From a virus, in the IMG/VR virus record IMGVR_UViG_3300022907_000005, positions 1-64,000 of that record: a DNA stretch of 64,000 nucleotides. One strand, written 5' to 3'. The position numbers were made by a program, and so were the translations under genes. Positions 6,520 to 33,046 of this stretch are shown here, piece by piece (position 1 is the stretch's first letter; every line of letters starts with the position of its first letter). Under the pieces are notes generated by a model. The model did no database searches. It was not told the origin of the DNA and worked only from the letters and a program-made list of their open reading frames with translations.

Positions 6520-6896
6520 TAAGAATCTCCTTCTTTTACGAAAACACCATCGACCATCTTACCTCTACGGTCTTTGATGTCATTATACGCTACACTTAGA
6601 CAGTCTGTCAATGACACATTGTTCCGTTCGGCAATGTTAATCAGCACGACCATACAGTCACCGATGTCATCTCTAACATCATTACCTTTACATACATTGT
6701 CACTAAGTTCACCTACCTCTTGGATCAATTTACAGACTTGATCTTTGTCTGTAGCTCCGTCGATGAGATTTCTATCTCGGTGCCATTGTTTTGTTGCGCT
6801 CACTAGCGCGATTAATCTTTCACTTTCATTCATTTGAGCAAGTCCTTTTAAGTTGCCGCGAATCATCATCAAAATTCTACGTTCATCATTTGTCAT
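6519..6896 (-). CDS. mazG: MazG-type nucleotide pyrophosphohydrolase, 125 aa
   Basis: The motifs LIQEVGELSDNV and VRDDIGDCMVVLIN give the acidic Glu/Asp clusters that bind magnesium in the all-alpha NTP pyrophosphohydrolase family. Such enzymes hydrolyse (d)NTPs or (p)ppGpp-related nucleotides, and phage copies are thought to tune nucleotide pools. The start at 6896 is chosen because it overlaps the gene 43 stop as ATGA with AGGA upstream; the longer frame runs into the polymerase gene. Substrate cannot be read from sequence. Confidence 0.8.
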   Translation of the reverse strand: MTNDERRILMMIRGNLKGLAQMNESERLIALVSATKQWHRDRNLIDGATDKDQVCKLIQEVGELSDNVCKGNDVRDDIGDCMVVLINIAERNNVSLTDCLSVAYNDIKDRRGKMVDGVFVKEGDS

Positions 6897-9382
6897 GAGA
6901 ACAAATCCTCCAGTGATGCCACGGGTCGTGGGGTCCAATTGATTGCCGTTGCAATAGTATTCATAGGGTCGATAAATGCCTTCTGAAACATTAGTTCATA
7001 GTCCACATATCTATGTAAATCAAACTCCGGCGGTAGTTTAGCGTTGAATGCAATACAGTTCTCGCCAAGGTGATTAGGTTCCTTGAGATACAGAAACTTA
7101 ATCTTCTCGCCATCCTGAATGCGCTCATGCTTCATTGTCAGATTATCACGCTTCAATACATGATTGTACATCAAAGCGCCTCGTACCTGCATCGGAGTGC
7201 CTTTAGAATAGATAGAAGCAGCATCAGAATATTTCTCTAAGTTGTTGCATCCTCTAGGGAAAGCAATCTGCTCGGGAGACATTTTCTGAAAGTCTCGCCA
7301 TGTATTCTCTACGAAATCCTGCAACACACCTTCTTCAGATGTGAGACAAAGTTTCACCGCCTCGCGTAGACTGTCTCTAACAGGAGCAGGTGTAGATGAC
7401 CGAACGACCTCTAAGCCCATCACCTTCAATTTAGGTTCAGCATAACGCACACCTTCATTATCGTACACGTTCAGAGCATATCTTTTCTTCGCTACCCAGA
7501 TGCCTTTGTCAGCAATAACCTCGCGCTTGAAGTCCATCTTTTGTGCAAATGCATTTGTATAGTCAGCAATACTATCCATTGCCTTAGCAATCGTAGGCTC
7601 AATTTGATCTGAGCCAATCTTGTCAAGGGCAGTGATAATGTTTGACTTGCTTTTATTCTTGAGAAACTTCTGTACAACGCCATCCATTGTGATGTAGCAA
7701 GAGTCAGTGTCCGAATAAAACGAGTACATCTTATCCTCAGTGCCACAGACGTTGTTCAAGAAATCATCAAGTGCCTTCGCAGACTCTCGGATGACAAACT
7801 GACCTGTCATCGTGATCCCTTCAGCAATTCTGTCATCATAATACCTGAAGTACTGATTGCCCATTGCACCATAGAGTGAGTTCAATTGAATCTTTCTAGC
7901 CATCTGAAAGTTATTGTATTTAGCAATGTCCTTCTGATATTTAGGATCCTTTGTCTCCTCGTATTTGTTCTGTGCCTGAATCATCAGCTTCTTGTATTTC
8001 TGCCGATCATCAAAAAACTTTGAAACAATCTCAGGAAATAGACCTTGTTTGTCGCGTGTGAATCTAGCACCGTTAGCAGCAATAGCATAATCGCCATCAA
8101 GGTTGTACTTGCGTTCAAGCATACCCTCAACGTTTACATCAACCATACCTTGTACGAGTGTCTCAGGAGACATGTTGTATTGCATGATGATAGAAGGATA
8201 CAGAGATGTCGCGTCGAATGCCATCACCCACTTGTATTCACCTGGCTTAGGCTCTTGCACAAACGCGCCTTCAATAGAACGACCCTGCGTATCTTTACGA
8301 GCAGGAATCATAATATTTTTAGCCAGCAAGTGATTGTACAGCAAGCAGTCCCAGGTTCTTACAGGTGAAAATGTATCACGGAAGTTCGACTTCGCGTCAT
8401 ATGTCATTGTAGCAATAAGCTCAATCAATTTCATCTTTTCTTCCAAGTCATCAATCAACTTGGTGTCGATGATGTTATAGTCGATGAAACGATTCCAGTC
8501 CTTATCGTAAAACTCCTTGAAAGTATCGAAGCCGCTTTCAAGTTTACCATGACCAAGTTCTACAGATGCAATGTGATCTAGCTTGTAGGATTCTTGCGCA
8601 CTGTAGGTAAACTTTTTGTACAGATCCAGATAGTCAAGGACTGAGATGCCTTTGATATCGTAAGTTGTATCTTCACGATTGTTTCGCTTGACACCCTTGC
8701 GTCTTGTTAGGTTGTAAGGAGATAGAGAGTTCTTTGCGTCATTGCCAAACACCCTGTCCATACGAGAAACAAGATATGGTATGTCAAAAAACTCAACGTT
8801 CCAACCAGTAACGATATCAGGATACTCATTCGCCCACCATGTCCCAAATTTAGTAAGCAGTTCAGTTTCATCCTCACAAGGAACATAGTTGACACCTAGA
8901 TCTTTTGTTTCAGGACCTGGACTCCACTCACCTTCTCCCCATGTTATGATCTCCTTTGTGTCATTATTCATCAACGTGATTAGAAGAATCTTGTCAGTAG
9001 GATTGTCTACGCTAGGAAAGCCTGTCTCAGCAGTAGTCTCAATGTCCATCGACCAGATAGATAACTGAGACAAATCAAACTCGATATCGCCCTGATATTC
9101 AGTAGATAGAAATTGATATGTCAGGTCAGTCTGTCCATAGATAGGATAGTTCTGAACCTGAGAATAGCTATCTAAGAATTCTTTAGCATCTCGGTTATTG
9201 CCGAATTGAATCGGCTTGATGTTCTCCCCATACAGTCCTCTGTACGGAGAGTCGCCATCAGCACGAACATATAGCGTAGGCTTGAAGGTTCGCTTTTCAG
9301 TAAAGCGTTTGCCATCGCGCACACCACGCAAGAATACTTGGTTACCATACTGCCAAGCCCAGCTGTAAAATTCGTTTTTCAT
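6893..9382 (-). CDS. 43: DNA polymerase gp43 (family B)
   Basis: The N-terminal 3'-5' exonuclease carries WSMDIETTAE (Exo I), NVEFFDIPYL (Exo II) and YNIIDTKLIDDL (Exo III). The polymerase domain carries DATSLYPSII (motif A), QLNSLYGAMG (motif B) and YSDTDSCYI (motif C). The C-terminus ASLEDLFS resembles the gp45 clamp-binding tail of T4 gp43. The start at 9382 (MKNEFYSW) is preferred because the longer ATG at 9391 lies within the -10 box of a perfect promoter. That promoter would begin transcription at about this ATG, so the early mRNA may be leaderless; no ribosome site is visible. Confidence 0.95.
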   Translation of the reverse strand: MKNEFYSWAWQYGNQVFLRGVRDGKRFTEKRTFKPTLYVRADGDSPYRGLYGENIKPIQFGNNRDAKEFLDSYSQVQNYPIYGQTDLTYQFLSTEYQGDIEFDLSQLSIWSMDIETTAETGFPSVDNPTDKILLITLMNNDTKEIITWGEGEWSPGPETKDLGVNYVPCEDETELLTKFGTWWANEYPDIVTGWNVEFFDIPYLVSRMDRVFGNDAKNSLSPYNLTRRKGVKRNNREDTTYDIKGISVLDYLDLYKKFTYSAQESYKLDHIASVELGHGKLESGFDTFKEFYDKDWNRFIDYNIIDTKLIDDLEEKMKLIELIATMTYDAKSNFRDTFSPVRTWDCLLYNHLLAKNIMIPARKDTQGRSIEGAFVQEPKPGEYKWVMAFDATSLYPSIIMQYNMSPETLVQGMVDVNVEGMLERKYNLDGDYAIAANGARFTRDKQGLFPEIVSKFFDDRQKYKKLMIQAQNKYEETKDPKYQKDIAKYNNFQMARKIQLNSLYGAMGNQYFRYYDDRIAEGITMTGQFVIRESAKALDDFLNNVCGTEDKMYSFYSDTDSCYITMDGVVQKFLKNKSKSNIITALDKIGSDQIEPTIAKAMDSIADYTNAFAQKMDFKREVIADKGIWVAKKRYALNVYDNEGVRYAEPKLKVMGLEVVRSSTPAPVRDSLREAVKLCLTSEEGVLQDFVENTWRDFQKMSPEQIAFPRGCNNLEKYSDAASIYSKGTPMQVRGALMYNHVLKRDNLTMKHERIQDGEKIKFLYLKEPNHLGENCIAFNAKLPPEFDLHRYVDYELMFQKAFIDPMNTIATAINWTPRPVASLEDLFS

Positions 9383-9389
9383 AGCACAC

Positions 9390-9418
9390 ATTATATATCA
9401 TAATAAGGGGGGTGTCAA
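9390..9418 (-). promoter_or_regulatory. Consensus sigma70 promoter for gene 43
   Basis: On the minus strand, TTGACA (9413-9418), a 17-nt spacer and TATAAT (9390-9395): a perfect match to the bacterial housekeeping consensus. It begins immediately after the stop of the LSm-like gene. Seven nt separate the -10 box from the gene 43 ATG. Confidence 0.92.
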
Positions 9419-12835: not shown

Positions 12836-13480
12836 TTAACTCATTGTTGCTTTGGAGTCAATACCGTCAGACAAGTTTAGGGTCAATTGCCTACCACCTT
12901 CTTTCGATTGCTCCTTTAGCCAAGCCAGGATGTTTTGCGGTGTCGTTTCTCCATAAGGATCATCGTCTACATTATCACCGTAACCTGGTTCAACAAAAGC
13001 CTTCTCAACACGCATATCGTCTACGATCATTGCATACCGCCAAGAGCGAACACCAAAACCGAAGTTGTCTTTTTTCACATCCATATGCTGGAATGTAGTG
13101 AACAAAGCAGAGCCATCAGGAATAACCTTGACGTTCTTTAGCCCTGAAGCCTTAGCCCAAGCATTCATTACGAATGCGTCATTTACTGATAGACAAAAGA
13201 TTTCATCGATTCCTTCTGCTTTGAATTCATCGTACATCCTTTCAAAATCAGGTAGTTGATGAATTGAGCAAGTAGGTGTGAATGCACCAGGCAACGAGAA
13301 TATGATTACTCGTTTACCTGCTACTAGATCAGCGGTTGTGACATTTTCCCATCGAAAGGGATTGCCCTCAGTGATAGTGTCATCTCGCACTCGCATGCGA
13401 AAAATTACATTCGCAATAAGCATATTATCTGGAGTGTTTCCCGATAGATCCGACTTAAACATATCTGCATTACCTGGCAT
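12836..13480 (-). CDS. Peroxiredoxin (Prx5/AhpC-TSA type), 214 aa
   Basis: The thioredoxin-fold peroxidase motif PGAFTPTCS holds the peroxidatic Cys, and GVRSWRYAMIVDD holds the conserved Arg and strand of the Prx5 group. VSVNDAFVMNAW-type residues (seen as LSVNDAFVMNAWAKASG) also match. It would reduce hydrogen peroxide or alkyl hydroperoxides in the host cytoplasm. The start at 13480 (MPGNADMFKS) has AGGAG upstream; the longer frame overlaps gene 45. Position between genes 44 and 45 inside the conserved replisome cluster suggests insertion of a host-derived gene. Confidence 0.9.
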   Translation of the reverse strand: MPGNADMFKSDLSGNTPDNMLIANVIFRMRVRDDTITEGNPFRWENVTTADLVAGKRVIIFSLPGAFTPTCSIHQLPDFERMYDEFKAEGIDEIFCLSVNDAFVMNAWAKASGLKNVKVIPDGSALFTTFQHMDVKKDNFGFGVRSWRYAMIVDDMRVEKAFVEPGYGDNVDDDPYGETTPQNILAWLKEQSKEGGRQLTLNLSDGIDSKATMS

Positions 13481-13490
13481 AATTTTTCTC

Positions 13491-14147
13491 CTAAATAACT
13501 GAGCTAGGTTCAAGTGCTAACCAATACTTCATATCAGATGAAGTGCTAGATAAGTACATGAATTTTTTCTTTGAAAGCGTAACATCATATTCGCCCGTGA
13601 TCACCTTGAAGTTCTCCACTGCGAGGCGGCAATCAAAGTCAAGATCGCTTTCACCTATGACATGCCTGAAAGTGTTGCTCTTAGGAGTTGAGGGGTCGCC
13701 GACTGATAACGTCACCGTGCCGCCCTTAGCAACTACACTCAGCATTGGCGCAGATACAATTGCAGCAGCCTTCATTATCATATTCACTTCTTCAGAAGTC
13801 AAAGTAAACTTATAATGCTCATCAACCTCAATCGTTTTGTCTGGTGCTGCGACAACAATGCTAGGATCAGCATAGTAGTATTCAAATTGACTTTGATCCT
13901 TGCCTACTGTCATACTACTCTCACCGAATGCAACATCAGTATCATCCATCAGAGTGAGAAGTGCCAACAGACTATTGAGATCATAAATCGCAAACTCACG
14001 ATCAAATGTCTCAGAGATTGTAGTGCGAGAAAAAATGTTTTTCCCCGTGCTAATCGTCGCTAGAGTGTTACCCTCACGAACAAGGATGTTCGTGTTGATA
14101 CTAGCATAGTTTTTTAGAATGTCCAGGGTGGACTTCGATATTTTCAT
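13491..14147 (-). CDS. 45: Sliding clamp gp45
   Basis: gp45 is the trimeric processivity clamp and, in T4, also the mobile activator of late transcription through gp33 and gp55. The N-terminus MKISKSTLDILKNYASIN, the segment FAIYDLNSLLALL and the end YWLALEPS match T4 gp45, and length (218 aa) is close (T4: 228). A sigma70 promoter with its -35 box in a hairpin lies upstream (14179-14207). Proteins ending in gp43-like tails in this window are candidate partners. Confidence 0.93.
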   Translation of the reverse strand: MKISKSTLDILKNYASINTNILVREGNTLATISTGKNIFSRTTISETFDREFAIYDLNSLLALLTLMDDTDVAFGESSMTVGKDQSQFEYYYADPSIVVAAPDKTIEVDEHYKFTLTSEEVNMIMKAAAIVSAPMLSVVAKGGTVTLSVGDPSTPKSNTFRHVIGESDLDFDCRLAVENFKVITGEYDVTLSKKKFMYLSSTSSDMKYWLALEPSSVI

Positions 14148-23135: not shown

Positions 23136-24196
23136 TTAATATCTTGTGCTTCCACATATAGAGTTCGCAATTGTGTTTTCAACCTATCACGGTCAAGATC
23201 AGTATTGATATTATCCACATAATCTACAAGCAATGTCATCGTATCCTCTAGATCAATATTCTCTTCACCTACTGCCTCGTCTTCAAACTCAGAAAAGTCT
23301 TCGATGATTTTCAACTCATTGAGGTTACAAGTATACAACGTATCAACTAGCTTGTCAAATGCCGTGAAGTCCGTTTTGTTCACAACAATCAATTTGACAG
23401 ATCGGTTCTGTAACGTAGAGTAATCAAATTCCTCAATCTGTTTCATAACCTGTACATTAGTATCATCATAGTATACTTTATGAAACATTTTGTAGGGATT
23501 CTCATAAAATGTAAAGTCTACAGTTTCTGTCTCCATGATATGAAACCCTCTCGGATCATCGTAATCTGACCAAGTAATTTCGTATGGATTTCCGAGATAA
23601 AATATATTACCACTACGGTCACGATGATGAAAGTGCCCACTACAAACAAGGTCAAACTGATTAAAAATCTTAGAATCCATACCATGCTCATTTCTAACGC
23701 CTTTATACATCTGGAAACCAGCAAGTTCAAAATGACCAAAACAAATGGTAGCATCTGCATTCTCCAAAGCATCTTTTGATGCTGCATAATTCTCTGAACA
23801 GATCCAAGGCATCAGTAGAATATTAGTATTGCCGAACTTAACTTCAGTCGGATCTTGATACAAAATTATGTTGTCATACTCTGCGAGTAATAGGTTAGGT
23901 GAGTTTACTTCATTTGTATTTTTGAAATAGGTGTCGTGATTGCCTGGTATAAGATGTATGTCTATACCTCTGCGGCGTGCCGCATCAAAAAAATATTTCT
24001 TGCAACTCGCTAAGGTGTTGAAATTGATGTACTTCCGTCGATCAAAAATATCACCCAAGTGAATGATTGTCTTTACACCCTGTTTCTCTATCTCAGGGAA
24101 AAACGAATCATTGTAGAAACTCTCAAAGAAATTGTCAAACGGAATAGAATCCGATCTAGCACCGAAGTGCGTGTCCGTGATGATTGCTACCTTCAT
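23132..24196 (-). CDS. 47: Recombination nuclease gp47 (SbcD/Mre11-like)
   Basis: A metallophosphoesterase with IITDTHFGA, LGDIFDRRKY, IPGNHDTYF and CSGHFHHRD, the four metal-binding motifs of the Mre11/SbcD nuclease family. It forms the end-resection complex with gp46. The start at 24196 (MKVAIITDTH) overlaps the queD stop as ATGA; the longer frame runs back into queD and lacks homology. 354 aa against about 339 in T4. Confidence 0.93.
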   Translation of the reverse strand: MKVAIITDTHFGARSDSIPFDNFFESFYNDSFFPEIEKQGVKTIIHLGDIFDRRKYINFNTLASCKKYFFDAARRRGIDIHLIPGNHDTYFKNTNEVNSPNLLLAEYDNIILYQDPTEVKFGNTNILLMPWICSENYAASKDALENADATICFGHFELAGFQMYKGVRNEHGMDSKIFNQFDLVCSGHFHHRDRSGNIFYLGNPYEITWSDYDDPRGFHIMETETVDFTFYENPYKMFHKVYYDDTNVQVMKQIEEFDYSTLQNRSVKLIVVNKTDFTAFDKLVDTLYTCNLNELKIIEDFSEFEDEAVGEENIDLEDTMTLLVDYVDNINTDLDRDRLKTQLRTLYVEAQDIK

Positions 24197-24636
24197 GCGT
24201 AAAAGACACCGGAGTTTGCGCCGTGTTCCATACACTCAACTTCGGTCACCCAACAGCGATTGTCTGTCATGTTTCTAACCATTTCATCAGTATATATGAA
24301 TGCGTGTTCAGCAAACTTTTCACACCCCACGCCATCAAGTACAGTAAGTGATGCGAGTCCAGATTCTTCTAACTCTTCAAACATATCCATTGCGGGGTCG
24401 TTAACATCGACAACAAGTTTGTGGTCAAAGTGATCTTCAAGCCAATATTTAAGGTCCTTCAGACCGCCGAAATCTACAACCCAGTTCTTATCATCTAAAC
24501 TTTCACAAGCAAAAGTAAACTTGAATCCTAGAGAATACCCATGCAACAAAGAGCAATGACTATGCGTTGCGTTAGGCTGTCTGAAAGTACACGAAAGTCC
24601 TCTCTCATGTCCATATGTTTTTGTAGATAAATGCAT
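24193..24636 (-). CDS. queD: 6-carboxytetrahydropterin synthase QueD
   Basis: QueD converts dihydroneopterin triphosphate to 6-carboxy-tetrahydropterin, step two of 7-deazaguanine synthesis. The sequence shows the zinc and Cys region THSHCSLLHGYSLGFKF, the core WVVDFGGLKDLK, a DH pair in LEDHFDHKL and a Glu/His near VECMEHGANSG. The usual HGH is HGY here, so one metal ligand is moved or replaced. Length 147 aa is normal. The start at 24636 forms TGATG with the glycosyltransferase stop. It pairs with folE (28548) and queE (30173) in the same locus. Confidence 0.85.
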   Translation of the reverse strand: MHLSTKTYGHERGLSCTFRQPNATHSHCSLLHGYSLGFKFTFACESLDDKNWVVDFGGLKDLKYWLEDHFDHKLVVDVNDPAMDMFEELEESGLASLTVLDGVGCEKFAEHAFIYTDEMVRNMTDNRCWVTEVECMEHGANSGVFYA

Positions 24637-25682
24637 CACTCTTCACCCTTTAGTACGTTGATTAAACCGTCAGCAGAAAAATATTCTTCTGTTAGAAACT
24701 TATAATTCTTATCTATACTATGTAACATCAAACCATCATCATAGAATGTCATCATCTGTCGAATACGGGCAAGCAACTCTTCTCGGTGCTTTTCATATTG
24801 AGCAAAAGATGCTGTCCAATCAGATGGATATTTGAATTCGTGACTGTACATTTCGCTGTACGATAGAGCATCCGGCACTAACGGCATGCCGCCTGCACAT
24901 AGAATTTCATAGCAACCTATACCTAGAGTCTCCTGTAAGTTTGCAGAGAACACCATCTTAGCTGAACCAAGCAACTTATGATACTCTGCTTTAGTGAGAG
25001 ATTCATCTTGTGCTACAACCAGTGTGTACTCAGGTAAATGTTTCTGCATATCTCTGAATATTTCAGGCTGTTTCTCGACAGCTAATCGATGTGGGAATAG
25101 TATCACATCCTCTTTATCGATACCACGTGTGTCATGCGCAATCTCATGGATCAAATAATCCATAGGCCAGCCTGTTCGATACGTTCTATCAGTGCCAAAG
25201 CAGACATTGAACATACCCTTGTGATCATGCGATGCAAACCAATTGTAGTCGTATGCATGATAAAAACTTTTCTCGGCATGTTGCAACCATCGCTGATCAC
25301 CATGCGCGCCGAGAAAATCATTAGGGTCATACGAACCGGCATGCCAAAGACCGTGAGTTTCTACAGGTACACCTAGCAACTGTGACATGTATTTTAAGTT
25401 GATGATACCTGGATGCCACGCATCAGCGAACACGAACTTGTCGCCTGGTTGGACTTTGTTTGCATGAAACAACTCAGCAATTTTCCTAACTTGCTCAGAC
25501 TTGTAGATGTTCGTACCAGAGAAATTTAGAAATGCACCAGGTGTTGCGCACTCAGCAATGTTATTAGGACCGTCAATGACAGTCACAGCCGCACCCGCAT
25601 TTCTAATAGCCTCAGGGAAATGTACTTTCCACTGTGCTGTGTAGCGAGTCTCTACATATTCTAGATCAACTAAATAGATCAT
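24636..25682 (-). CDS. GT-B glycosyltransferase (GT4-like), 348 aa
   Basis: The C-terminal half has FPHRLAVEKQPEIFRDM, KLLGSAKMVFSANLQETLG and CYEILCAGGMPLVPD, which fit the nucleotide-sugar-binding half of GT-B enzymes of the GT4 type (Glu-containing EX7E region). The N-terminal half includes TVIDGPNNIAECATPG and KFVFADAWHPGI. The start at 25682 (MIYLVDLEYVETRY) is preferred; a longer frame overlaps the upstream gene without support. It lies inside the QueD-DpdA operon, so a role in decorating the modified base is possible, but protein or surface glycan targets cannot be excluded. Confidence 0.72.
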   Translation of the reverse strand: MIYLVDLEYVETRYTAQWKVHFPEAIRNAGAAVTVIDGPNNIAECATPGAFLNFSGTNIYKSEQVRKIAELFHANKVQPGDKFVFADAWHPGIINLKYMSQLLGVPVETHGLWHAGSYDPNDFLGAHGDQRWLQHAEKSFYHAYDYNWFASHDHKGMFNVCFGTDRTYRTGWPMDYLIHEIAHDTRGIDKEDVILFPHRLAVEKQPEIFRDMQKHLPEYTLVVAQDESLTKAEYHKLLGSAKMVFSANLQETLGIGCYEILCAGGMPLVPDALSYSEMYSHEFKYPSDWTASFAQYEKHREELLARIRQMMTFYDDGLMLHSIDKNYKFLTEEYFSADGLINVLKGEE

Positions 25683-26022
25683 TCTGTACAATACCCCCAT
25701 TCTCATCGTCTTCGTAAACTTCAACCTTGCAAGCTCTGTCAGGGTAATATGCTTCCATGTAATCAAGCAGACTATCTGCAAGCATTTCACATGATTGATT
25801 GTTTAACTGCAAAGTCCCGCCATCATATAACGCTTCAAGTTCACGCTTCAATAGTATGAATTCAACATCTCTGTCATCATGAAACACTCCAAGAGTCACA
25901 TAGAAGTGAAACATATGCCGATGTGGGTATTGCAAAAATTCTACACCAGGTAGATTTGCAGCGGCAGGGTATTTGTGAATGCCTTCTTTCTGAAAACTAA
26001 CCTGAATAAAACTTTTTCTCAT
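25666..26022 (-). CDS. QueD/T-fold-like small protein, 118 aa
   Basis: Residues about 31-65 (LQYPHRHMFHFYVTLGVF, then DVEFILLKRELEAL) and 77-105 (SCEMLADSLLDYM, ACKVEVYEDDENGG) follow the order of a T-fold (QueD-like) domain: His-rich strand, D/E-F..LK helix, then a Cys/Glu segment. Some metal ligands seem changed. It may be a diverged QueD/QueF-fold enzyme supplying a missing step, or a partner of DpdA. It ends QNDLFS, loosely like the clamp tail of gp43. It overlaps dpdA by ATGA with AGAGGA upstream. The family call is tentative. Confidence 0.5.
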   Translation of the reverse strand: MRKSFIQVSFQKEGIHKYPAAANLPGVEFLQYPHRHMFHFYVTLGVFHDDRDVEFILLKRELEALYDGGTLQLNNQSCEMLADSLLDYMEAYYPDRACKVEVYEDDENGGIVQNDLFS

Positions 26023-27284
26023 AAAAACAAATCCTCTAATGACGGCGGTGCGTCTGTTCGTACAGGGGTAGATTTCATACTACCTCCCAGATACTGGTCA
26101 GATTCCCATCTACGGAAATCGTCAACAGATTTGATATTATACAAGTTTCTGAATTGATGTTCAAGCCGCATCTTGACCGAATACTTCAATAAAGCATCTT
26201 TGTCAGTCAGCATGGTTTGCATAGTTCGCATGAAGTTTCGAGTACTACCTGCAACAACCATAGTCCTAACACGCATCCACATATACAGATCGCCGCCTAG
26301 TTTCTTATAGTCACCTACGCCGTTGTTTAGCACATTGTAGAAGTCTTCAATAGTAGTACCTACATCCATAACTGTATTGAGATCGTTGTAAATTAATTCA
26401 TAGTTAGGACCCCATGCTCTACCTATGGACATAGTTCTGCCATTGATAAAGTACAATCCATTCTCTGCTGCTCTTGCATGCGAGGTACTATCATATGAAA
26501 TTTCAACGTGATCATACAGCCCATTCTGACAAAAGATTAGATAAGGAATCATGCGTCGAACACTGCCGACTCCTAGAACGTGAAGATGTAATTTGCCTTC
26601 TGCATTTCTAAAAGGAAGCTGACTAGCAATAAATGCACGTTTCACATCTTCAAGTGGTCCTGTTCCGAGTGCAGCCGCACCCATAGCAACGCCTCCAATG
26701 TAGCCGTGTCCGCTCTGTGGGACCTCAGATAGCATCCTATCAAACCAAGTCATGTATGTGTCATAGCAATTTCCTTGTAAAATTGCAAATGATTTACAGG
26801 AGCTTGATTTCTCATCAAATATCTCTACTTGCTTTCTGATATTATTGCCTGTTTTTCTAGCAAGTGCCTCGTAGTTTTCAAAGTCAAAGTATCTACCTGA
26901 AACATCGTTTCTATCTGACTTGCCACTTGGCATGATGATAGGTATCTCATCAAAGCACATACCAACATCAGCAAATTCCGCTTGATTGTGATATACCTTT
27001 TCTTTCAACTCTTCAGTGATAGTCTTACCTTGTGTGACTATCTGCAATCCACCAGAGTCTGCGTGAATGTTTTTGATATGATCTCTGTAAGGTTCAAATC
27101 GTCCTCCATAGTCTGCTTCTTGATATGCATTATACAAGATAGAATAATTGTGACTATAATGATTGTTGACAAAATTATCAAAGATTTGATTTATCACGCC
27201 AGCAGTATCAGGATCATTAGCCGCAAGAGGGTTTGCGATCCGCATATAGCTTGTCCCTGATACTACATACTCTAGCTTATGCAT
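26019..27284 (-). CDS. dpdA: DpdA-like DNA 7-deazaguanine transglycosylase, 421 aa
   Basis: The TGT-like barrel is visible: IHADSGGLQIVTQG (base-binding Asp and SGG), AILQGNCYDTY, GYIGGVAMGAAALG, LHVLGVGSVRRMIPYL and HVEISYDSTSHARAAENG with the likely nucleophilic Asp. The zinc site CxCxxC of tRNA-guanine transglycosylases is absent, as expected for phage DpdA, which swaps guanine in DNA for a 7-deazaguanine base. The C-terminus PSLEDLFL nearly equals that of gp43 (SLEDLFS), so docking on gp45 is inferred. It is flanked by queD, folE and queE. Confidence 0.85.
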   Translation of the reverse strand: MHKLEYVVSGTSYMRIANPLAANDPDTAGVINQIFDNFVNNHYSHNYSILYNAYQEADYGGRFEPYRDHIKNIHADSGGLQIVTQGKTITEELKEKVYHNQAEFADVGMCFDEIPIIMPSGKSDRNDVSGRYFDFENYEALARKTGNNIRKQVEIFDEKSSSCKSFAILQGNCYDTYMTWFDRMLSEVPQSGHGYIGGVAMGAAALGTGPLEDVKRAFIASQLPFRNAEGKLHLHVLGVGSVRRMIPYLIFCQNGLYDHVEISYDSTSHARAAENGLYFINGRTMSIGRAWGPNYELIYNDLNTVMDVGTTIEDFYNVLNNGVGDYKKLGGDLYMWMRVRTMVVAGSTRNFMRTMQTMLTDKDALLKYSVKMRLEHQFRNLYNIKSVDDFRRWESDQYLGGSMKSTPVRTDAPPSLEDLFL

Positions 27285-28026: not shown

Positions 28027-28551
28027 CTAACTCCTGAGTATAGTCAATAAGGTTCGCGTTTGACTCATTGCATCGTCAAGTGCATTATGATGAGTGTCAG
28101 CCTCTGCCTTTCGTATCTTAACATTACTAACGCCTACTAGATTCAACACTGTCCTGTAGCACTGCACTTTCCATGCTGACCATGGGATAGTCCTATCAGT
28201 GTTCCAGTATGCTGATTCTAATATCGATATGTCAAACGCGGCACCGTTGCCCCAGATGACAGTATTCTTTCGGTCAGTCCCATACCATTCAGCAAACATA
28301 TCCAATGCATCACCAATTGGTTTAGGATCAACAGTCAATGCTTTCCTAGCATCCGGTGACTGCCTTGACCACCACTCAACCGTTTCTTTGGATACATGCA
28401 ACCCAACATCTTTACATGATTGACCATCAACATTAACATAGAATGTATCAAGTACCCCATCTTCGACATTAAAAGCCACTGCACCGATAGAAAGAATTGC
28501 CGCATAAGGTCTGACGCTAAGAGTTTCGATGTCTACCATTATATGTTTCAT
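28027..28551 (-). CDS. DEDDh 3'-5' exonuclease (DexA-like), 174 aa
   Basis: Exonuclease motifs are MVDIETLSVRP (Exo I, D and E), VIWGNGAAFDISILE (Exo II, D) and THHNALDDAMSQTR (Exo III, H and D), giving a complete DEDDh set. It resembles T4 DexA, which degrades DNA from 3' ends, and the small size fits a bare exonuclease domain. It may degrade unmodified host DNA or act in repair; that is inferred from its place in the DNA-modification locus. Confidence 0.82.
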   Translation of the reverse strand: MKHIMVDIETLSVRPYAAILSIGAVAFNVEDGVLDTFYVNVDGQSCKDVGLHVSKETVEWWSRQSPDARKALTVDPKPIGDALDMFAEWYGTDRKNTVIWGNGAAFDISILESAYWNTDRTIPWSAWKVQCYRTVLNLVGVSNVKIRKAEADTHHNALDDAMSQTRTLLTILRS

Positions 28552-29234
28552 GATCTAGGTGCAAACTCCTGTTGTAATTTGATGTTGTCGAAAAATTCTT
28601 TCTTTAGGTCTGGCTTTTTAAAGCCCCCTCTTAATACAGTTGTCTGTGTTAAGGAACTGTGTGCTTTAATACCTCTGTTCTCGCAACAACCATGCGTTGC
28701 TTGCACATACACCCCTACATGCTCTGCGCCTGAGTGTTCTTGTATCTCATTAGCGATCATAACATTGAGTTCTTCTTGTAATGTACCACGCATAGCACAC
28801 CACTGTGCGATCCGCGTGTACTTACTTAGACCTAAGAGCTTGTCACCCGCAATGATTCCTATGTATGCAACGCCTGAGACTGGCTGATGATGATGCGAAC
28901 AAATACTTTTCAATTCACTTCTGACAACCAGCATACCCTCATAACCGTCTTCTACATAATTGGGAAAACTGTTGGGGTCTGGCATTGGATAATATCTGCC
29001 ACTCATGATTTCATGCACATACATTTTAGCCATTCGCCTTGCTGTACCAATGCTATTAGGATCTTCTTCCGTGTCAATTATCAGAGATTGCAACACGCTT
29101 TCAAATTTATCTGAGACTTCATCGACTAGCAAGTCAAGTTCATCATCTTCAATAAATCCTGAGATGTTATCTGCCGCATAGTATCGAGAACCAGAACGTT
29201 CAATTCGATCTCTAATTGTTTGGCTTATGCTCAT
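28548..29234 (-). CDS. folE: GTP cyclohydrolase I (FolE)
   Basis: FolE opens GTP to dihydroneopterin triphosphate, the first step of both folate and 7-deazaguanine synthesis. Motifs: SICSHHHQPVSGVAYIGI (zinc Cys and His), GLSKYTRIAQW, and HGCCENRGIKAHSSLTQT (second zinc Cys and catalytic His region). Length 228 aa is typical. Its position between dpdA and queE indicates that it feeds the DNA-modification pathway. Confidence 0.92.
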   Translation of the reverse strand: MSISQTIRDRIERSGSRYYAADNISGFIEDDELDLLVDEVSDKFESVLQSLIIDTEEDPNSIGTARRMAKMYVHEIMSGRYYPMPDPNSFPNYVEDGYEGMLVVRSELKSICSHHHQPVSGVAYIGIIAGDKLLGLSKYTRIAQWCAMRGTLQEELNVMIANEIQEHSGAEHVGVYVQATHGCCENRGIKAHSSLTQTTVLRGGFKKPDLKKEFFDNIKLQQEFAPRS

Positions 29235-29793: not shown

Positions 29794-30173
29794 GGGAAAA
29801 CTACCCAGTCATCAGCCTCAAAATACTCTGCTCTATATTTTGCCATACTATCGCCTGTCTTGTCTATTAGAACGGCAAAATCGGTGTTCTTAAATACTTC
29901 AGATAATCCTCTTATTGTATCACCTGTGTCACAGATGTCATCTACAATCAAAGCCTTTTGGTAACTTTGCTGTGAGATGATGTGCATTGAGCCGTTACCA
30001 TCTCTTAATTGGTATTGAACAGTAGCCATTGGTACGCCTAGCAAGTGCGACAGTTGAACAGCAGGAACTAAACCGCCTCTTGTGACACCTATGATGATGT
30101 CGTAATTTTGATCTTGTACGCGGCGATATAGTTTATTGATCATCGCATCATACTGTTCCCATGTTATATGCAT
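29781..30173 (-). CDS. Type I phosphoribosyltransferase, 130 aa
   Basis: The PRPP-binding loop is ALIVDDICDTGDTIRG and an N-terminal pattern IIIGVTRGGLVPAVQLSHLLG matches xanthine/guanine/hypoxanthine phosphoribosyltransferases. It would join a purine base to PRPP. In this locus it could raise GMP/GTP for FolE, or convert a 7-deazaguanine base to a nucleotide; the second idea is speculative. It starts on the queE stop region and overlaps the SGNH gene. Confidence 0.85.
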   Translation of the reverse strand: MHITWEQYDAMINKLYRRVQDQNYDIIIGVTRGGLVPAVQLSHLLGVPMATVQYQLRDGNGSMHIISQQSYQKALIVDDICDTGDTIRGLSEVFKNTDFAVLIDKTGDSMAKYRAEYFEADDWVVFPWEQ

Positions 30174-31060
30174 TATGTACCTATCGCGTTGCCGAAAACG
30201 TAGCTATGATTTCTCGTAGCTACTTTATAACCACGACACATCGCTTCCATGCAGATGTCAGCAACTTCTTCTTGCTCTTCTTTTGTCGCACCTGCAGGCA
30301 TTATCCAAACTTCTGGGTGCGGAATCTCGTTTGAATCAGCCAGAGCATTTGTTTCTCTACACCAGTAATCAATCTCGTTCCAAGAATTCTCTGTGCCGTT
30401 ACACACAAATTTTATGATGCCTGTGCTTCGTGTTGCCTGTAAGTAATCGACGTAGATATCTGGCATAATTTTGTCTTTCTCGCCAGCAGTGAACAGCGTC
30501 TTAGGACTAATAGCCCAATGCCAACGTATTCCCATATCAGCAAGATATACGTTGATGAAATCTCGCAGTTCAGGATTCAATGGTTTTGTACCGTTTGTTT
30601 CTACGGTGATTATTTTAGGTGGGTTGCCGCGAATCAGAAACTCATTGACAATTGCCTTCATTTGTTTCTGTCGCAACATGGGTTCGCCACCTGTAAAAGC
30701 AAGCATATTTTCTTGACCAGTTACAGGATGCGTAAATTTGTTGAAAGGTAAACTTAATTCTATTCTGTCACAAACTTCTTCAACATCACAGTCTTGCGCC
30801 AAATGCTTATACTTCTTTGACCATGAGTAGGAGCTGTCACATCCATACTGCCATACAGGAAGATCTTCAACCTTTTTCACATTGATCAGGTCATAGTCTT
30901 TGTATGGCAATATCCATGTGCTTTCATCTTCAGGATTCTTTTGACCGAAGCCATTGCATTCTAAGTTGCAACCAAAGAATCGAAGCCATGCAGTAGGTGT
31001 GCCAGCTAGTTCTGCTTCACCTTGGAAGCTATAAAAAATCTCGGAGTATCTAATATTCAT
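30173..31060 (-). CDS. queE: 7-carboxy-7-deazaguanine synthase QueE (radical SAM)
   Basis: QueE converts 6-carboxytetrahydropterin to 7-carboxy-7-deazaguanine with a [4Fe-4S] cluster and SAM. Motifs: IFYSFQGEAELAGTPTAWLR, GCNLEC with the first two Cys, a roughly 50-residue insertion, then YGCDSSYSWSKK with the third Cys, and LAFTGGEPMLRQ. The start at 31060 (MNIRYSEIFYSFQGE) follows a perfect promoter by 6 nt, so the early mRNA may be leaderless; an upstream TTG lies inside the -10 region and is rejected. Confidence 0.88.
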   Translation of the reverse strand: MNIRYSEIFYSFQGEAELAGTPTAWLRFFGCNLECNGFGQKNPEDESTWILPYKDYDLINVKKVEDLPVWQYGCDSSYSWSKKYKHLAQDCDVEEVCDRIELSLPFNKFTHPVTGQENMLAFTGGEPMLRQKQMKAIVNEFLIRGNPPKIITVETNGTKPLNPELRDFINVYLADMGIRWHWAISPKTLFTAGEKDKIMPDIYVDYLQATRSTGIIKFVCNGTENSWNEIDYWCRETNALADSNEIPHPEVWIMPAGATKEEQEEVADICMEAMCRGYKVATRNHSYVFGNAIGT

Positions 31061-31066
31061 ACGCGC

Positions 31067-31095
31067 ATTATACAAGTATTCAAATGTTATGTCAA
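31067..31095 (-). promoter_or_regulatory. Consensus sigma70 promoter for queE
   Basis: TTGACA (31090-31095), 17-nt spacer, TATAAT (31067-31072), a perfect match on the minus strand, with only GCGCGT between the -10 box and the ATG. It can feed the whole queE-to-gp47 run. Confidence 0.92.
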
Positions 31096-31098
31096 GAA

Positions 31099-31686
31099 CT
31101 AATCAGCCAAATCTTTAAGTTGTTCGACCTTTTCTTTCGCTAACTTGAGTGCTTCAGCATCATCAAAGTATTTCGGTCTACGCTTAGCCAGCTTCTGATC
31201 CTTGTGTTTTTCATTTAGCATTGCAGCATCATCAGCTTGCTTGCGAATGAAATCCAGATATTCGGTGTTGCCCGATCCTTCTTCATCTGCAATCAGCCCT
31301 TCTATGTCAACACTCTTGATATATTTTTGCTTGATGTCTAGCTGTTTCTTTTCTTTCTGAATTCTACGCAGAAAAGCATAGTAGGTAATTTGCGTGAAAT
31401 ATGCAAACGGGTTCTTAGATTTTTCAGGATTGAAGTTGTCAATATAGGTGATGCAGTTTTCAATGCCATCCAGAATCATTTCATCTCGAAAGGTATAATT
31501 GACAAAATTGGATTTGTATGCCAAATGGTTTGCAATCTTGACCATGCATTCACCAAGATAATGGGTGACGCGAGGCTTCGGTTCGTCTGCTTCTTTTGCT
31601 GCCAACACCTTTTCTCGATACTCAGAAATTTGTTTTAGAAATTCCTTGTTATCGATATAGTGAGCAGTCTTTGTTTTTGTCTTCAC
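31099..31686 (-). CDS. 55: Late sigma factor gp55
   Basis: gp55 directs host RNA polymerase to TATAAATA late promoters, many of which are present here. The centre NPFAYFTQITYYAFLRRIQKEKKQ (residues about 91-114) is the sigma-region-2-like core of T4 gp55. The length is 195 aa (T4: 185). The C-terminus EKVEQLKDLAD is not an obvious clamp-binding tail, unlike T4 gp55, so the contact with gp45 may differ. The 92-nt gap upstream holds a plus-strand promoter. Confidence 0.9.
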   Translation of the reverse strand: MKTKTKTAHYIDNKEFLKQISEYREKVLAAKEADEPKPRVTHYLGECMVKIANHLAYKSNFVNYTFRDEMILDGIENCITYIDNFNPEKSKNPFAYFTQITYYAFLRRIQKEKKQLDIKQKYIKSVDIEGLIADEEGSGNTEYLDFIRKQADDAAMLNEKHKDQKLAKRRPKYFDDAEALKLAKEKVEQLKDLAD

Positions 31687-31778: not shown

Positions 31779-32153
31779 TCAATGTATCTTTGTTACACTA
31801 TCAGATGGGATAAGATTTGGTAGCTCATCTTCTAGCTCTCCCTCGTCATCTCCTCCCAAGTAAAAATGTTCAACTGTTGCCATATATTCTGACGCATACT
31901 CTGTTTTTAGTTCAGTAATATAAAGTATTACACTACTATTTATAGTGATTGAATCCGCGCTTGAGAGAGTTTGCCAAGGCTTCAAGTTAAATCTCTCACG
32001 CATGTCCTTCCCTGCTTCTTTGTATAATGTGATAACTTCAACAGGAAAAGTGAGATTGATAGTATCATTCAAATTTTGTGTATACGCATTATCAATCATA
32101 GCAATAACTATATCACCTGTTTTCAGTTTAAAAATTCTTATTGTATCACTCAT
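31779..32153 (-). CDS. LSm/Hfq-like small beta-barrel protein B, 124 aa
   Basis: Paralogue of the protein at 9419-9751: IRIFKLKTGDIVIAMID aligns with its IKLITGEEIIAKVTD, INLTFPVEVITLY with the NQPAIIIL strand, NLKPW with GLAPW, and the C-terminal EYASEYM with EYEKLYG. It has an extra acidic tail (GGDDEGELEDELPNL). Function unknown; a small oligomeric beta-barrel is inferred. It starts at the ATGA of the glycosyltransferase stop and is overlapped by the predicted antisense RNA from 31721. Confidence 0.6.
   Translation of the reverse strand: MSDTIRIFKLKTGDIVIAMIDNAYTQNLNDTINLTFPVEVITLYKEAGKDMRERFNLKPWQTLSSADSITINSSVILYITELKTEYASEYMATVEHFYLGGDDEGELEDELPNLIPSDSVTKIH
31782..31823 (+). CDS. Possible 13-codon ORF behind the antisense promoter
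   Basis: ATG at 31782 follows GAAAGGA by 9 nt, within the RNA predicted from the promoter at 31721-31749. It encodes MYLCYTIRWDKIW and a stop. The arrangement promoter, ribosome site, ATG looks deliberate, but such a short frame in antisense to a gene end may be chance, or mark a decayed gene. Confidence 0.3.
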   Translation: MYLCYTIRWDKIW

Positions 32154-33046
32154 GCAAAAAGAGACTCCAATGTGTTAACTACATAATCTTTTGTGTATGG
32201 TCTTGTTATTCTCTTATCAAGATATATACCATATCGTCTTCCTACATATTTATACCACTGCCCGCGACTAGCAGGTAAGCCATAGATTCTACTAAAGATC
32301 TTATCACCTTTATCCATCTCTGCTTTACGAGTGTTTTGTGCTCCAGCGTGTGTACTAGGAGAGGTAAACTCTTTCAACATAATGTTTCTTAGAATGTAAG
32401 TGCCATAACCATTCATCGCACATTCAAGTGCAAAGAAATCATCTTCACCTACTACTAATTGTCCATCTACATAATCAAACTCTTCGTTGAACATAACCTT
32501 GGCATCATTTTTTCTTAGAAAGAACATCGTACCTTTCATAGAGCCAAACTTTCTATCAAAGCACAACTCATCGTCCCATTTAACATTGAGATAATTTTTA
32601 TCAAGATTGCTGTACTTGTCTTTGAATGCGCCGTCTCCCGGTCTACCGTCCCAGTGAGGGAAGAACAGATCAACACCCTCAAAATTCTCTGGGTATTCTG
32701 TGAGTACGTCACATATGTTGATACCTGTGTGTGAGAATTCTGCGTGTTCTTTTAGTATAGCATCGTTGTCCATAAACAACGCCCACTCATGTGTGCTATC
32801 TGCATAGAAAGCCTCAAGCAATACGTTTCTCGCTTTCCCAGGCGGTACCAAAGCATGCGGTAAATACTGAACGCCAGGTATATACTCATCTGCGTAATAG
32901 TCTTGTGCTAAAACTTTAATTTCCATATTAGGACAAGTCTTTCGCCAGAATTCAATTTGCTGTTTGTGATTTTCTACCCGGATGCTTCTCGCTTCTGGTT
33001 CATCCTTACTGCCAAAGTAAGATATGATGTATGCTTTCACGTTCAT
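32150..33046 (-). CDS. GT-A glycosyltransferase with clamp-like tail, 298 aa
   Basis: ALFMDNDAIL (about residue 90) supplies the DxD metal and nucleotide-sugar site of GT-A enzymes. GSMKGTMFFLRKNDA and VVGEDDFFALECAMNG form the acceptor side. The last residues VNTLESLFA resemble the gp43 clamp tail (SLEDLFS) and the DpdA tail. T4 alpha-glucosyltransferase, which acts on DNA, is reported to bind gp45, so this enzyme is a candidate DNA glucosyltransferase. The gene lies beside uvsW and gp55, not in the fibre region. Target and donor remain unknown. Confidence 0.72.
   Translation of the reverse strand: MNVKAYIISYFGSKDEPEARSIRVENHKQQIEFWRKTCPNMEIKVLAQDYYADEYIPGVQYLPHALVPPGKARNVLLEAFYADSTHEWALFMDNDAILKEHAEFSHTGINICDVLTEYPENFEGVDLFFPHWDGRPGDGAFKDKYSNLDKNYLNVKWDDELCFDRKFGSMKGTMFFLRKNDAKVMFNEEFDYVDGQLVVGEDDFFALECAMNGYGTYILRNIMLKEFTSPSTHAGAQNTRKAEMDKGDKIFSRIYGLPASRGQWYKYVGRRYGIYLDKRITRPYTKDYVVNTLESLFA

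Follow-up and report, generated by a model that had tools for sequence, protein, structure and literature searches.

A predicted clamp-interacting tail at the C-terminus of the phage DNA-guanine transglycosylase DpdA

The C-terminal peptide of DpdA in the phage studied here very probably tethers this enzyme to the sliding clamp gp45, so that base exchange would follow replication. In particular, within the window (the whole stretch of 64,000 nucleotides that was analysed) DpdA ends in PSLEDLFL and the DNA polymerase gp43 ends in ASLEDLFS, exactly as the original prediction had it. Docking of DpdA on gp45 is the most likely reading, supported by the likeness of the two peptides and by the distribution of the tail; the coupling of base exchange to newly made DNA we infer from that docking. 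It is already known that the tails by which gp43, gp55, and gp33 bind the clamp can replace one another (PMC2988020), and a clamp-bound alpha-glucosyltransferase has been described; what appears to be new here is a clamp-type tail on DpdA and on other putative DNA-modification enzymes.

DpdA and the tail that it shares with gp43

The 421-amino acid ORF at 26019-27284 gives weak Tgt matches in NCBIfam, and a search of its profile against PDB sequences returned no match; its identity rested on fold comparison. The AlphaFold model of the protein (pLDDT 89.6) has the TGT fold, its top Foldseek matches being TGT (1pud, 1.1e-7) and the DNA preQ0 insertase DpdA (7ui4, 3.3e-6). Moreover, the protein is about 34-37% identical to the DpdA2 proteins of KVP40 and nt-1 across 275-294 residues (E 4e-39 or better), and its relatives comprise proteins of KVP40, nt-1, and Stenotrophomonas phages, some of which are annotated as queuine tRNA-ribosyltransferase. 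Judged by its kinship to nt-1 and KVP40, the ORF is DpdA, of the DpdA2 subfamily, this name having been given to the nt-1 type (PMC6884629). Of the preQ0 pathway, FolE, QueD, and QueE were identified near dpdA and QueC was not. The genes in question are as follows.

24193..24639, minus strand: QueD-like protein, 7-deazaguanine pathway
25666..26022, minus strand: gene after dpdA, PHROG 17812, 118 aa, ends GIVQNDLFS
26019..27284, minus strand: dpdA, DpdA2-type DNA-guanine transglycosylase, 421 aa (TGT-superfamily match, AF2 model, Foldseek)
28548..29234, minus strand: FolE, 7-deazaguanine pathway
30173..31075, minus strand: QueE-like radical SAM protein, 7-deazaguanine pathway

The PHROG 17812 protein encoded behind DpdA has a QNDLFS or VNDLFG/S end in some phages only (window 25666-26022; L019:11170-11529; L109:944-1303). 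It was rejected as a tail carrier, a QNDLFS-like end being present in 1/30 of its family.

The last codons of dpdA encode ...DAPPSLEDLFL* and those of gene 43 encode ...RPVASLEDLFS*; the two ends are identical over SLEDLF and differ in the flanking residues (P or A before, L or S after). Positions 26019-26045 of the minus strand correspond to the last eight DpdA codons and the stop. The features that bear on the tail are these.

6893..9391, minus strand: gp43, family-B DNA polymerase, 832 aa (PHROG 262 DNA polymerase)
6896..6919, minus strand: gp43 tail ASLEDLFS, clamp-interacting peptide, counterpart of T4 gp43 ASLDFLFG
13491..14147, minus strand: gp45-type sliding clamp, presumed docking partner, 218 aa (PHROG 223, 3.7e-61; RB69 gp45 1b77/1b8h, E 1.6e-16)
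26022..26045, minus strand: DpdA tail PSLEDLFL, of the clamp-interacting type, near-invariant S/T-L-E/D-x-L/M/F-F (stop at 26019-26021)
26032..26036, minus strand: GAGGA among the tail codons, a Shine-Dalgarno-like site of the following gene, which starts (ATG, 26020-26022) in overlap with the stop of dpdA
32150..33046, minus strand: glycosyltransferase-2/GT-A-like protein, third tail carrier of the genome, 298 aa (weak Pfam Glyco_trans_2_3; phage relatives annotated as glycosyltransferase)
32153..32176, minus strand: GT-A tail NTLESLFA

The original prediction also held that the gp43 tail of T4 docks on gp45. This agrees with published work, in which T4 gp43 without its last six residues does not associate with the clamp and SLDFLF occupies the pocket of gp45 in the form of a one-turn helix (PMC12746103). 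The C-terminus of DpdA carries the T4-type CIP/SCBM pattern [ST]L[DE]x[LFM][FY], and in the DpdA model a short one-turn helix at residues 416-420 follows a stretch of falling confidence (pLDDT 86, 74, and 54 over the last three blocks). The linker before the tail is variable and flexible, as judged from column entropy and the drop in pLDDT. The phage that bears this tail encodes its own gp45-type clamp. In an alignment of 27% identity the hydrophobic RB69/T4 pocket residues Y39, I107, F109, W199, and V217 (PMC3012046) align with F, I, V, S, and W of the window gp45, and the basic R32 with I; this merely partial conservation of the pocket would weigh against docking. A peroxiredoxin-like gene (Redoxin 2.2e-24; window 12836-13513) adjoins the clamp gene.

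The tail of the GT-A-like protein is kept in 13/13 homologues, which end in NTLESLFA, HTLESLFA, NTLEELFT, or NTLEGFFE; the structure prediction for this protein (pLDDT 53) gave a model that was too poor for a fold comparison. Note that in all three window tails (26019-26045, 6893-6919, and 32150-32176) the codons also hold a Shine-Dalgarno-like GGAG/GAGG, and the ATG of the next gene overlaps the stop (ATGA).

Distribution of the tail

A scan of IMG/VR for orthologues of DpdA yielded 58 loci. The C-terminus is complete at 57 of these, and every one of the 57 has the tail: 56 fit [ST]LE[DEG][LM]Fx and one (L053) ends SLDEDLFV. Four of six distant isolates (29-41% overall identity) carry it as well, namely BUCT-ZZ01 (ASLDSFFD), Moby (NSLDDLFG), ACP17 (TTLDELFE), and X1 (QSLEELFG); in the other two, DpdA2 of KVP40 has no tail and pf16 has the degenerate end VTLDLMCA. 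Thus, the loss of conservation that would have spoken against the original prediction was not seen, either in the IMG/VR orthologues or in these four isolates. The same prediction raised the question of whether the tail goes with gp45: it is widely kept among DpdA orthologues, but not every gp45 phage has it on DpdA, as KVP40 DpdA2 shows. The cases of KVP40 and pf16 therefore suggest that tethering is dispensable in some lineages. (The gp43 of nt-1, a relative of KVP40, has the tail TLESFFG.)

Within the motif, column entropies over 26 sequences were 0.93 bits for S415, 0.24 for L416, 0.85 for E417, 2.03 for D418, 0.89 for L419, and 0.47 for F420, and outside it they were mostly 2.1-2.7 bits in the linker 409-414 (P413, 0.9) and 2.8 bits at residue 421. 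Wherever both could be read, the tails of DpdA and gp43 from one phage are alike, including in the choice of LF versus FF. Thus gp43 and DpdA end in SLESLFG and SLEELFG in X1, in SLEDLFGW and SLDDLFG in Moby, and in SLDDLFE and TLDELFE in ACP17, and BUCT-ZZ01 has FF in all three of gp43 (TLDDFFS), DpdA (SLDSFFD), and a GT1 protein (SLEDFFND).

The tail is confined to few proteins. When the pooled motif [ST][LIMFV][DE]x(1,2)[LMF]Fx(0,2)-end was run against 1267 distinct proteins from DpdA loci, it gave 51 matches, in DpdA (38/40), gp43 (6/6), GT-A (4/4), GT1 (2/2), and FkbM (1/2), and none among the other 1213 proteins of these loci; on this ground a chance match of the DpdA and gp43 tails was rejected. 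In the window's own genome (about 114 ORFs) the strict tail is found only on gp43, DpdA, and the GT-A-like 298-amino acid protein, and in a 170-kb contig (223 ORFs) only on DpdA and gp43. It is carried by DpdA and gp43 in G002, and in G003 also by an FkbM methyltransferase encoded directly after gp43, so that in four genomes or contigs (114, 223, 107, and 112 ORFs) the strict tail is limited to gp43 and DpdA, with no more than one putative transferase besides. A 162-kb genome (G008, 217 ORFs) has it on gp43, DpdA, and a GT1 glycosyltransferase, together with two weak chance matches. A 236-amino acid protein of BUCT-ZZ01 ending TGLETFFA was rejected as a carrier and counted as chance, being a baseplate hub protein. 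Within the carrier families the tail is kept in 13/13 GT-A, 4/4 GT1, and 10/10 FkbM proteins, counts that are not independent because the members are often close relatives.

The collection of 2.9 million viral contigs was scanned with two nucleotide patterns encoding [ST]LEDLFx-TGA at a C-terminus, with a minimum protein length of 25 aa; as these patterns fix some codons, the scan samples the tail and is no exhaustive count. Among the 84 distinct proteins recovered, 65 are gp43 and 11 are DpdA (some from divergent lineages), which makes DpdA second only to gp43 as a carrier. The others are three FkbM methyltransferases, two GT1-like glycosyltransferases, one TET/JBP oxygenase, one HNH/endonuclease-VII-like protein, and one unknown protein. 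The TET/JBP oxygenase (L282:4390-5682; Pfam Tet_JBP 1.6e-22) has the tail STLEDLFA, and gp45 is encoded at the same locus; its relatives in isolates end in ATLGDFFV (DLP_6), SLEEFFV (C48C1), and GATLF (Cr30). For those of DLP_6 and Cr30, the existing annotation (SNF2 DNA repair protein) looks mistaken. The unknown protein (PHROG 13881) is the middle one of three adjacent tailed genes (L284:1121-4515), flanked by a 5-hmdU DNA kinase-domain protein (STLDSFFV) and a C5-cytosine methyltransferase (NTLETFFE); this trio looks like a DNA hypermodification cluster.

DpdA1 (the 9g type, from siphophages without gp45, and distinct from DpdA2) has ends of another kind, such as QELF, QRRLF, QPGLF, and QDLF. 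Of 64 distinct viral sequences, 43 have a strict QxLF/QxxLF-type tail and 63 have one in a wider sense (59 have [LFM]F among their final few residues, and in four QELY, QDLF, or QDLY stands near the C-terminus; L232 is without). A 9g-type clamp gene lies at most 3.5 kb downstream of dpdA in 70/71 viral loci, often directly next to it, in counts that ignore relatedness. Two phage-like loci in metagenome-assembled genomes (L144 and L146) have both tail and clamp. In bacterial or archaeal DpdA-like loci without an adjacent 9g-type clamp, QxLF was found in 0/12 (one ends RLF), the DpdA proteins of the mycobacteriophages Typha and Lars have no such tail, and a search of plasmids for bacterial DpdA returned partial distant matches only. 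The bacterial beta-clamp motif is QL[SD]LF. The DpdA1 tails are like this motif, although they are often one residue shorter (QxLF) and stand at the extreme C-terminus, and their presumed partner is the phage's own clamp. (In 9g-like siphophages, L126:2006-3960 and L134-L140, the usual gene order is dpdA, immediately thereafter the phage clamp gene, and then the gene for DNA polymerase.)

Alternative accounts of the tail

We entertained the idea that the tail arose incidentally from gene overlap, the TTA/TTG-GAG-GAT codons carrying the Shine-Dalgarno sequence of the next gene and thereby forcing LED. The tail codons of dpdA do double in this way (TTAGAGGATTTGTTTTTATGA), all three window tails end TTRGAG...ATGA, and a Shine-Dalgarno-like sequence is present in the tail codons at 7/7 tail-bearing ATGA junctions examined. 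However, among 47 ATGA junctions there are 23 with Shine-Dalgarno-like codons, and these encode the tail at seven (gp43, DpdA, and GT-A) and unrelated C-termini at 16. Moreover, the tail is kept with TAA or TAG stops and no overlap (L019, L050, L051, L053, BUCT-ZZ01, Moby, and X1), the peptide is kept in spellings without GGAG/GAGG/AGGA, such as TTAGACAGT (BUCT-ZZ01), TTGGATGAC (Moby), CTCGAAGAG (X1), and CTTGAAGAT (L050), and the invariant L-F behind the Shine-Dalgarno sequence is not demanded by it. An origin of the tail in the overlap, highly improbable and largely refuted by the orthologues without overlap or Shine-Dalgarno spelling, was thus rejected; the overlap is a second use of the codons rather than the cause of the tail. 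We consider it very improbable that the tail is neutral and was acquired through recombination in the conserved 3' end of gene 43, as a shared block of tail, Shine-Dalgarno sequence, and ATGA. The tail blocks are alike at the DNA level, and the FkbM gene, with nearly the same end, directly follows gp43 in 6/6 loci checked; but neutral tails would decay, whereas L416 and F420 hardly vary even in DpdA sequences of only 27% identity, in contrast to the unconserved linker. In addition, dpdA and gp43 are not adjacent in the window, and the DpdA1 tail is of a different type.

The occurrence of an LF end in two DpdA families is what one might expect if this end were a structural or protein-stability feature of transglycosylases with no role at the clamp. 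The tail is nevertheless common to unrelated folds (gp43, glycosyltransferases, methyltransferases, and TET/JBP), it is missing from the mycobacteriophage and bacterial or archaeal DpdA-like proteins, and a low-confidence linker precedes it in the model, all of which makes a purely structural or stabilizing LF end extremely improbable. A further reading, that the tail binds gp45 for a purpose other than coupling to synthesis, for instance to keep DpdA off host DNA or to store it at the replisome, is unlikely but carries more weight, as clamp tethering alone is no proof of coupling and the interaction of T4 alpha-glucosyltransferase with gp45 did not set the share of modified bases (PMC13216743). 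Against it, tails on many different putative modification enzymes fit a shared need for replicated DNA; note that such a purpose and coupling are mutually compatible.

Proposed mechanism and known systems

According to the docking model, the SLEDLF end of DpdA would interact with the clamp in the manner of the T4 gp43 peptide: behind a variable linker, it would form a one-turn helix and dock in the hydrophobic pocket of gp45. Clamps behind the polymerase, left on new DNA, would hold DpdA on the fresh duplex, where guanines would be exchanged for a 7-deazaguanine soon after synthesis, and tailed glycosyl-, methyl-, and other transferases may take turns at the pockets of the clamp trimer. There is so far little molecular answer to how post-replicative modification keeps pace, or to why phage and not host DNA is marked, and a clamp-binding tail on DpdA would be a simple mechanism for both.

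The DpdA tail matches the C-termini (SCBM/CIP) of T4/RB69 gp43, gp55, and gp33 in position, length, and pattern (compare SLDFLF-G of T4 gp43 and SLDFLYEAND of T4 gp55), and as in those proteins it is acidic and hydrophobic and stands behind a variable linker (PMC2988020, PMC12746103). Whereas the T4/RB69 carriers are the polymerase and late-transcription factors, the carrier here is a base-exchange enzyme. In contrast to T4 gp55, the late sigma factor gp55 of the window (31099-31686) ends ...KVEQLKDLAD with no T4-type clamp tail, as is the case for gp55 of BUCT-ZZ01 and X1, and late transcription may therefore be tied to the clamp in another way.

The closest precedent is the interaction of T4 alpha-glucosyltransferase with gp45 (Sommer 2004, as cited in PMC13216743 and PMC6024577), which has been confirmed by pull-down (PMC13216743). 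Like DpdA in our proposal, it is a phage DNA-modifying enzyme on the sliding clamp that is proposed to act with replication. Unlike DpdA, it glucosylates hmC without base exchange and ends FKEQFDIITK with no SLxxLF tail, and its mode of binding must thus differ. DNMT1 is tethered to PCNA by a PIP box and modifies DNA behind the fork. As proposed for DpdA, a DNA-modifying enzyme is here held at the clamp, although DNMT1 is a eukaryotic, unrelated enzyme and the position of its motif differs. The DpdA proteins of 9g and CAjan and DpdA2 of nt-1 (PMC6884629) combine TGT-superfamily base exchange with a preQ0 pathway, as here; the 9g type has a QxLF-type tail, DpdA2 of the nt-1 relative KVP40 has none, and no clamp link is described for either. 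A literature search on DpdA with the clamp, and on clamp-interacting with hypermodification, found no such link, subscription papers lying mostly outside its reach. The earlier statement that a clamp-tethered DpdA had gone unreported thus stands for the literature searched, but the T4 alpha-glucosyltransferase must be set beside it.

Some published findings run counter to the proposal. When DpdA of 9g is combined with Gat-QueC in E. coli, plasmid DNA becomes modified in the absence of the phage clamp (PMC6884629); the host beta clamp might act as a stand-in there. The DNA of Rosebush is heavily modified (PMC6884629), with tail status in this group judged from the tail-less Typha and Lars, the latter in the Rosebush species. 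Expression of T4 alpha-glucosyltransferase, and not its binding to gp45, was judged to set the share of glucosylation (PMC13216743). In nt-1, dPreQ0 amounts to 0.11% of G, and CAjan has far more (PMC6884629). A rule linking presence of the tail to modification level was rejected, because Rosebush is heavily modified though Typha and Lars have no tail; nt-1 was judged via the tail-less KVP40.

We think it reasonably likely that a clamp-docking tail is a portable module of phage DNA-(hyper)modification enzymes with unrelated folds (DpdA, TET/JBP oxygenase, 5-hmdU-kinase-like, C5-methyltransferase, glycosyl-, and FkbM methyltransferases), with independent origins in gp45 phages (SLEDLF) and in those that have a beta-like clamp (QELF). 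Should it have arisen separately with two types of clamp, then phage genome modification would in general be coupled to replication. The tailed phage DNA-modifying enzymes suggest that these phages mark their DNA during copying, and if the tail is general it could serve as a marker by which to recognize new DNA-modification enzymes in the unannotated part of phage genomes. The HNH/endonuclease-VII-like protein of the collection scan (L281:6664-7350) ends ATLEDLFT and is a possible clamp-tethered nuclease. Near the TET/JBP gene of DLP_6, a 287-amino acid protein that starts MNIVIPTYMRE and is perhaps a glycosyltransferase (L399:3057-3920) ends LSDLSSFFN.
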